Assembly (NCBI GenBank): GCA_025453925.1
Contig: JALOPK010000104.1
Span: forward strand, 1-9,423
Source of the DNA: Candidatus Eiseniibacteriota bacterium
GTDB taxonomy: Bacteria; JAFGKV01
Length of the DNA stretch: 9,423 nt
Reading direction: 5' to 3'
Of this stretch, positions 7,757 through 9,423 are shown in pieces. The notes under the pieces are model-generated. The model saw only the letters and a list, made by a program, of their open reading frames with translations, was not told the DNA's origin and did no database searches. The translations under genes were made by a program, and so were the position numbers. The stretch's first letter is position 1, and each line of letters begins with the position of its first letter.

Positions 7757-9097
7757 CTATGGCCTCCCGATCGCGACATACTCGAACCCGATGGCGCGCA
7801 TCTCGACCGGATCGAGCATGTTACGGGCGTCAACGAGGATCGGATAGTTCATGGTGCTCTTCACCCGCGGCATATCGAGGCGTTTGAATTCGTCCCACTC
7901 GGTCATGAGCAGCAGCGTGTCGGCATCCCGGGCAACGGCATAGGGGTCGGAGCAGAACTCAACATCCTGCAGGTAGTGTGAAGCCTCGCCTGTCGCATGC
8001 GGGTCGTAGGCGCGCACGCGGGCTCCGTCTGCTTGGAGCGCCCGAATGATATCCACGGAGGGTGCCTCCCGCATGTCATCCGTGTCAGGCTTGAACGAGA
8101 GCCCCAGGACGCCGATGGTCTTACCCCGGATGATCCAGAGCGCCTTCTTTATCTTCTGGACCACAAGATCCCGTTGGCTGTGATTGATGCGCGCCACCTC
8201 GTCCAGCAACTTGAACTCGTATCCGAGGCTATTCGAGATCTTCCTGAAGGCGGCCACATCCTTCGGGAAGCAGCTTCCGCCATAGCCCGCGCCCGCACGG
8301 AGGAACTCCGGGCCGATCCGCCGGTCGTACCCCATGCCCTTGGCGACCATGGTCACGTCGGCGCCCGAGAGCTCGCAGACGGCCGCCACGGCGTTGATAA
8401 AGCTGATTTTCATGGCGAGGAAGCTGTTGGAGGCGTGTTTGATGAGCTCGGCGCTCTTGACATCCGTCACGACGAACTGAGCGGGGCCATCCTTCTCAAG
8501 GGAGCACTCGCAGCCGCTGAACGAGCGGTTGATGATGGGTTCATAGAGTTCGCGCATGATCTCGGCGGCGCGAGCGCTTCCCGCGCCCACGACGATCCGG
8601 TCAGGGTACATGAAGTCGTAGATCGCCGCACCTTCCCGGAGGAACTCTGGGTTGCTGACCACGTCGAACTCGACAGCGTGGCGGTTATTGAGGCGGATGG
8701 TCCGATCCACCCACTGGCCCGTCTGCACGGGAACGGTGCTCTTCTCGCTCACGACGCGGTAGCCATCCATGTAGCGGGCGACTTCCCGCGCCACGGCCTC
8801 GATATAGCTCAAATCGGCTTCGCCGTCTGGCTTCGGAGGGGTGCCGACAGCAACGAAGATGACCAGCGCGTGCCGGACGCCCTCTTCCATCGATGTCGTC
8901 ACGCGCAGCCGGCCCGTCTGCATGTTTCGCGCCACCAGCTCAGGAAGCCCCGGCTCGTAGATGGGCATGTGGCCACGGGTGATCATCTCAATCTTCTTCT
9001 GGTCGTTGTCCACGCAGACGACTTCATTGCCTATCTCTGCCAGGCAGGCCCCGGTGACCAGACCGACGTGCCCTGCGCCTACGATGGTGACGTTCAT
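7757..9097 (-). CDS. ugd: UDP-glucose 6-dehydrogenase (UDP-glucose/GDP-mannose dehydrogenase family)
   Basis: This 446-residue cytosolic enzyme carries out the two-step NAD+-dependent oxidation of UDP-glucose to UDP-glucuronate, a precursor of capsule, exopolysaccharide and modified glycolipids. It carries the Rossmann motif GAGHVG (7-12), acidic D30 in VVCVDND, GTPPKPDGEADLSY (85-98), SEKSTVPV (117-124), SNPEFLREG (148-156), K220 and N224 in ELIKHASNS, the catalytic loop GYGGSCFPKD (271-280) with nucleophile Cys276, and the C-terminal domain GLSFKPDTDDMREAPS (332-347). A short Cys-containing insert (GCECSLEKDG, 195-204) precedes the central domain. ATG at 9097 is chosen because GAGGAG (plus-strand 9103-9108) lies 5 nt upstream and the Rossmann fold begins at residue 1; the in-frame ATG at 9172 would add 25 atypical residues. 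It heads the minus-strand cluster. Confidence 0.94.
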   Translation of the reverse strand: MNVTIVGAGHVGLVTGACLAEIGNEVVCVDNDQKKIEMITRGHMPIYEPGLPELVARNMQTGRLRVTTSMEEGVRHALVIFVAVGTPPKPDGEADLSYIEAVAREVARYMDGYRVVSEKSTVPVQTGQWVDRTIRLNNRHAVEFDVVSNPEFLREGAAIYDFMYPDRIVVGAGSARAAEIMRELYEPIINRSFSGCECSLEKDGPAQFVVTDVKSAELIKHASNSFLAMKISFINAVAAVCELSGADVTMVAKGMGYDRRIGPEFLRAGAGYGGSCFPKDVAAFRKISNSLGYEFKLLDEVARINHSQRDLVVQKIKKALWIIRGKTIGVLGLSFKPDTDDMREAPSVDIIRALQADGARVRAYDPHATGEASHYLQDVEFCSDPYAVARDADTLLLMTEWDEFKRLDMPRVKSTMNYPILVDARNMLDPVEMRAIGFEYVAIGRP

Positions 9098-9184: not shown

Positions 9185-9236
9185 GCTCCGGCGCAGCCGG
9201 CGGTGCGCGCACCGGCAACCGGTTGACAGCCGGAGC
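9185..9236 (-). promoter_or_regulatory. Structured leader with nested palindromes upstream of ugd
   Basis: An outer stem GCTCCGGC (9185-9192) with GCCGGAGC (9229-9236) encloses two perfect palindromes, CGGTGCGCGCACCG (9201-9214) and CAACCGGTTG (9216-9225). It lies 88-139 bp upstream of the ugd start codon, in the expected leader. It may be a regulator binding region or a folded 5' UTR. No riboswitch class is recognised, and I could not find a convincing -35/-10 pair on the minus strand. Confidence 0.4.
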
Positions 9237-9337
9237 AGTTCAGGGCAGGTTGGCCGTCGGACGGCTTACTCACCGTTGGGATGCCGCATTGACGCGAGGC
9301 CACTCAGGTAAGGCCGTCGCGGCTCATGCGTCAAGGC

Positions 9338-9393
9338 CCTGGCCTCCCACGGGCCGATGTTTCACGTGAAACATCGGCCCGTGGGAGGCCAGG
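9338..9393. repeat. 56-bp perfect palindrome, no loop, containing parS
   Basis: Every base from 9338 to 9365 pairs with its mirror position from 9393 to 9366; the symmetry breaks immediately outside (C9337 faces C9394). Twenty bases on each side extend the parS core. It lies about 240 bp upstream of ugd. As RNA it would form a very strong hairpin, so it may also terminate a transcript entering from the right, though there is no T-run. Confidence 0.9.
9358..9373. promoter_or_regulatory. parS: parS site (ParB/Spo0J-binding centromere)
   Basis: The 16-bp palindrome TGTTTCACGTGAAACA is an exact match to the consensus parS sequence known from Bacillus subtilis and conserved across most bacterial phyla. 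ParB (Spo0J) loads here and spreads as a CTP-dependent clamp, then recruits SMC and interacts with ParA. parS sites cluster near the replication origin, so the window probably lies in the origin-proximal part of a chromosome, or on a large replicon with its own par system. No parA or parB gene is in the window, which is normal for secondary sites. Confidence 0.85.
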
Positions 9394-9423
9394 CGGAGGC
9401 GGTTCATCAGCCGGAAATCCTGG

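Follow-up and report, generated by a model that had tools for sequence, protein, structure and literature searches.

Why should a bacterial centromere site lie at the exact centre of a 56-bp perfect palindrome? Chromosomal parS is regarded as an element of 16 bp. ParB, a CTPase, binds this core as a dimer, closes into a clamp and slides outwards, and the clamps spreading from parS mark the region for segregation by ParA. The DNA analysed here (the window, 9,423 nucleotides in all) is contig C68 of a draft genome of a Candidatus Eiseniibacteriota bacterium (3.9 Mb, 502 contigs, 82% complete), and its right-hand limit is the end of that contig.

The parS core and its genomic setting

The palindrome occupies positions 9338-9393, with its axis between 9365 and 9366. 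Its two 28-nt arms (9338-9365 and 9366-9393) are 100% complementary and have no spacer (0 nt), which makes it by far the top-ranking inverted repeat of the whole window. At its centre, positions 9358-9373 read TGTTTCACGTGAAACA, an exact match to the chromosomal parS consensus, that is, the nucleation site of ParB; the sequence-only reading had reported such a core within such a palindrome, and both were confirmed. Outside the core remain a left arm (9338-9357, plus strand) and a right arm (9374-9393, plus strand), each of 20 bp and the latter the exact reverse complement of the former. Given the core, a further 20 pairs would all match by chance with a probability of about 0.278^20 (~1e-11) under the local base composition. 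Read as RNA, the palindrome is predicted to form a strong hairpin (z = -8.3). Elsewhere in the window, a 17-bp perfect hairpin with a 1-nt loop (2672-2706) follows by ~19 bp the stop codon of a lactate/oxalate-type MFS transporter gene; it has the motif TGGCCTC in common with the parS arms, probably by chance.

The exact 16-mer was found in its own genome only in the window and in contig C449, and since the two contigs overlap, the C449 copy is a second view of the same site. When up to 3 mismatches were allowed, 7 sites were recovered (including the two exact matches) against 5 for a reversed-pattern control, which corresponds to background level. C449 begins inside the palindrome, its positions 1-77 aligning with window positions 9347-9423 at 97% (BLAST) and its parS lying at 12-27, so that C68 and C449 represent one locus. 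Directly downstream of parS and beyond the end of the window, C449 carries parA (112-912) and then parB (866-1720), with ~64 bp between the end of the palindrome and the start of parA. The last 30 bp of the window (9394-9423, plus strand) are identical to C449:48-77 and constitute the start of the parA leader, continuing into parA and parB. On the other side of the site lies ugd (7757-9097, minus strand), encoding a nucleotide-sugar (UDP-glucose) 6-dehydrogenase (TIGR03026, 445.7 bits over its cut-off) and transcribed away from parS. Two blocks common to a same-genus relative may contribute to a promoter, as judged from the alignment: TTGACA at 9223-9228 (plus strand), a candidate -35 element directed towards parA, and TTGACG at 9289-9294 (plus strand), a candidate promoter element located 68-69 bp before parS in both genomes. 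A promoter scan gave no full match.

Two relatives were compared, one genome of the same genus (G001) and one of the same family (G002). G001 presents on one contig the order ugd (minus strand), parS, parA and parB, followed by two neighbours that are also present on C449, a TIGR02757-like and a rubrerythrin-like ORF as read from their translations, and this shared gene order supports the joining of C68 and C449. In G002 the order parS-parA-parB is kept, with parS ~95 bp before parA, and the site is thus found at the orthologous position in both relatives. In the draft assemblies of all three genomes dnaA and parS are on different contigs; rsmG was not found in the genome of the window and lies elsewhere than parS in the two relatives. 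In another genome (L058; G046:C78, 4113 bp), 10 bp separate parS from the end of its contig, a situation similar to that in the genome of the window, and assemblies may tend to break at parS.

The ParB encoded on C449 is of the chromosomal type (TIGR00180, 181.5 bits) and scores below the cut-off for Noc. Its R157 and G185 align with R173 and G201, two positions reported to be invariant in present-day ParB but altered in Noc (PMC7383237), and the contact residues listed in the same work are likewise present (Q146, G154, K155, S156, N162 and R188). The Noc binding site (NBS) is also palindromic and read by a ParB paralogue, but it has another sequence, and the protein described here carries R and G, as ParB does, where Noc has Q and R; a Noc site was therefore ruled out by both core sequence and ParB residues. 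The identification of the site as parS, already proposed by the sequence-only reading, is backed by parA and parB on the overlapping contig, by synteny in two relatives and by these specificity residues, and neither of two findings that could have spoken against it was made: the genome does have parB, and the palindrome is not found again as a terminator. The evidence thus supports a genuine parS, a bacterial centromere whose core is the TGTTNCACGTGAAACA consensus.

Arm symmetry at parS and at other palindromes

Cellular parS sites were collected regardless of their flanks, from regions of a broad genome set and from 80 loci around ParB genes, giving a sample of 148 distinct sites with the exact core. 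Symmetry was extended by 4 pairs or more at 26 of these, against ~0.8 expected from composition, an expectation that rises to ~1.7 (by hand arithmetic) if the preference for A at the first two flank positions is included. At least 6 extra pairs occurred at 12 sites (0.06 expected) and at least 8 at 9 sites (~0 expected). The excess at intergenic sites spans about 20 genomes; the longest palindrome of the survey, of 58 bp, is from a Clostridium genome, followed by that of the window, and others reach 36-42 bp. At flank positions 1-8 of the 148 sites, left and right flanks agree more often than the base preferences of each position would allow, indicating true symmetry and not a longer motif, and the arm sequences are unrelated among extended sites. 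At least 4 extra pairs were seen at 22 of 89 intergenic sites versus 3 of 56 located inside ORFs. The earlier expectation that parS normally lacks long palindromic flanks consequently holds for most sites, which have 0-3 extra pairs, but fails for this intergenic fraction. No significant enrichment of extended sites was seen immediately before parA (9 of 39 sites there versus 17 of the other 109, p = 0.33), and T-tracts were not enriched among them (6/26, versus 30/122 at non-extended sites).

Some individual sites deserve description. The 58-bp perfect parS-centred palindrome of the Clostridium MAG (L084, position 4084), the longest found, lies ~100 bp upstream of parA. In L197 (G175:C22:1-3000), six exact parS lie within ~1 kb immediately before parA, and the closest of them to this gene has a 42-bp palindrome; L204 (G174:C54:28500-31500) presents an unusually dense array of eleven exact parS within ~1.1 kb.

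Other palindromes were used as controls. Of 68 other 16-bp palindromes in the same cellular DNA, 2 had at least 4 extra pairs, and one of these two is a terminator-like hairpin. For parS on viral contigs, at least 4 extra pairs were found in 5 of 141 sites and at least 8 in none, among the matches listed. LexA boxes reached at least 4 extra pairs in 2 of 143 cases, this control being drawn from viral contigs because cellular DNA yielded just 4 exact matches. CIRCE, the operator of HrcA, showed at least 4 extra pairs in 5 of 30 cellular copies versus 0.14 expected, although its location in mRNA leaders means that it is not a clean neutral control. Two CIRCE copies (L334 and L354, both at position 1501) carry 8 and 6 extra symmetric pairs, respectively, outside the HrcA operator. 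Like parS, CIRCE is an old, conserved inverted-repeat operator with excess flank symmetry; it differs from the site in the window in its 9-nt spacer, its mRNA-leader location and its shorter arms (up to 8 extra pairs seen). Among other palindromes in viral DNA 12 of 166 are also long, so the contrast between viral and cellular sites is specific to these operators and is not to be over-read. parS is not alone in showing excess arm symmetry, which is stronger at long-lived cellular palindromic operators than at viral ones. Exact chromosomal parS sites occur on many viral contigs (at least 120 stretches, L214-L333), some forming arrays of up to five, and these are possibly decoys or hitch-hiking sites for the host ParB.

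Arm differences and their possible origin

In their overlap, C68 and C449 differ only at position 9349 (A in the window contig, G in C449) and at position 9382 (T in the window contig, C in C449), which are exact partners across the palindrome axis and changed together, and for this reason both alleles keep full symmetry over their readable part. Paired change at partner arm positions is expected of a palindrome shaped by template switching, and the A9349:T9382 versus G:C difference is of this kind, being one pair seen in two contigs of one draft genome. C449 starts at about the point where this palindrome would cause a graph assembler to fold back, given an odd word length near 41. The first C449 word would then already have contained both polymorphic positions, so that the pairing probably came from the reads.

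The relatives show that the long arms are not required, since symmetry at parS covers the 16-bp core only in the same-genus genome and 20 bp in the same-family one. This agrees with the earlier suggestion of a species-specific parS form, as the same-genus relative is without long arms. About half of the left-arm positions are the same as in the same-genus left flank (ungapped alignment, counted by eye). The right arm is asymmetric in the relatives, and the right flank is too different from that of the one same-genus genome for arm changes to be polarised. The parAB leaders of both relatives fold no better than shuffled sequence, and a conserved RNA leader structure was accordingly rejected. 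The same-genus parS lies within an offset inverted repeat (L044, 1758-1796; CCGTCGATG ... CATCGACGG) that takes in one half of the core and is possibly what is left of an older palindrome.

The reading that we favour, with a probability of roughly 0.6, is that the site is an ordinary, working parS; template switching during replication would have given its arms their symmetry, and the arms would be largely neutral. ParB dimers would bind the 16-bp core, leaving the 20-bp arms outside the recognition sequence, and by covering the leader ParB probably represses parAB, as suggested by its family. The need for ParB binding would keep the core as a perfect inverted repeat and hence as a permanent seed, at which the nascent strand may turn back on itself and use one flank as the template for the other; the same switching would convert single mutations into paired ones. 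Arms of arbitrary sequence would then be gained and lost from species to species and build up wherever they do not disturb a gene, probably remaining largely neutral, with a minor role as hairpin or cruciform being possible. Such switching is a well-established source of mutation: at inverted repeats that are imperfect, it makes the arms match fully and changes partner bases together (PMC8794818). Quasipalindrome reporters in E. coli lacZ offer a further precedent for the mechanism (PMC7202029). Acting at a core kept by ParB, template switching would explain why the arms are arbitrary and why the nearest relatives lack them, as well as the intergenic bias and the paired polymorphism, and the excess symmetry of a different palindromic operator, CIRCE, is in line with it. 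Two results fit this account less comfortably: the few extended arms at other cellular 16-bp palindromes (2/68) count against template switching, and the little excess in viral parS and viral LexA boxes obliges a purely mutational explanation to invoke young age or different replication of those sites.

A more tentative explanation, possible but rather doubtful, is that the arms themselves are selected, either as a cruciform extruded under supercoiling or as an extended RNA hairpin in the parAB leader that would aid ParB loading or tune parAB expression while the sequence drifts. Such selection would equally predict covariation and sequence-free arms, and the strong predicted hairpin, the coupled A:T to G:C difference and the excess symmetry at intergenic parS across the surveyed genomes are all in its favour, as is the weak excess in viral parS among the matches listed, where such a role might be absent. 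It is opposed by the same-genus and same-family sites, which lack long arms at the same position and whose leaders fold like shuffles, by the lack of significant clustering of extended sites before parA, and by the majority of parS sites being armless. The remaining explanations are far less probable. That both contigs end in or near the palindrome, where graph assemblers stall, could point to a fold-back artefact at a contig end, responsible for the palindrome or for the paired polymorphism. This is very hard to reconcile with a window contig that crosses the palindrome and continues for 30 bp more, with C449 confirming the sequence up to parA, with a left flank and a gene order on both sides that are collinear with the same-genus genome, and with parS palindromes of 38 to 58 bp found well inside other contigs.

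The sequence-only reading had also considered a combined centromere and terminator hairpin, and a site read by a second dimeric protein, neither of which withstood the comparison. The long G+C-rich stem would suit a terminator, and several extended sites elsewhere lie shortly downstream of a stop codon; yet no T-tract follows the stem, no terminator-like call was made there, and no gene ends into the palindrome because ugd is transcribed away from it. Considering also that T-tracts are equally frequent at extended and non-extended parS, such a dual element is highly improbable, and an intrinsic terminator, understood as a G+C-rich hairpin plus T-tract after a gene end, was rejected. Symmetry would likewise suit any dimeric regulator, but BLAST of the region revealed no further copy of the arms in the genome, and the arms are neither conserved in the genus nor related among species with equally long ones, so that recognition by a second DNA-binding protein has very little to recommend it. 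The absence of other copies in the BLAST search also led to rejection of a recurrent repeat element.

Known systems and significance

The site in the window shares with chromosomal parS of ParABS systems the same exact 16-bp core, the position beside parAB and a ParB with parS-type specificity residues, and is distinguished from most surveyed sites by its 20-bp perfectly symmetric arms. It resembles the products of quasipalindrome template-switch mutation, which likewise perfects imperfect arms and makes paired changes around an inverted repeat (PMC7202029; for an origin of RNA stems by this route see PMC8794818). Unlike the reporters, it is a natural protein-binding site with a seed kept by selection, and template switching is an inferred origin here. 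While parS itself is known, no description of its long-arm form and of the recurrence of this form in unrelated bacteria was found in the open-access literature.

In summary, among intergenic cellular parS sites that match the core exactly, roughly one in four extends its symmetry by 4 pairs or more (20-21 at most), and the arms are unrelated in sequence. It seems unlikely, though worth stating, that at parS generally a mutational or selective process builds long, sequence-free symmetric arms and that these, as cruciform or hairpin, give the centromere a second layer with a function of its own, helping to load ParB or controlling parAB. If the arms do arise by template switching, protein-binding palindromes would be seeds that reshape the neighbouring DNA, and parS would offer a natural place to measure this process; if they are instead selected, bacterial centromeres would have an unrecognised structural layer.
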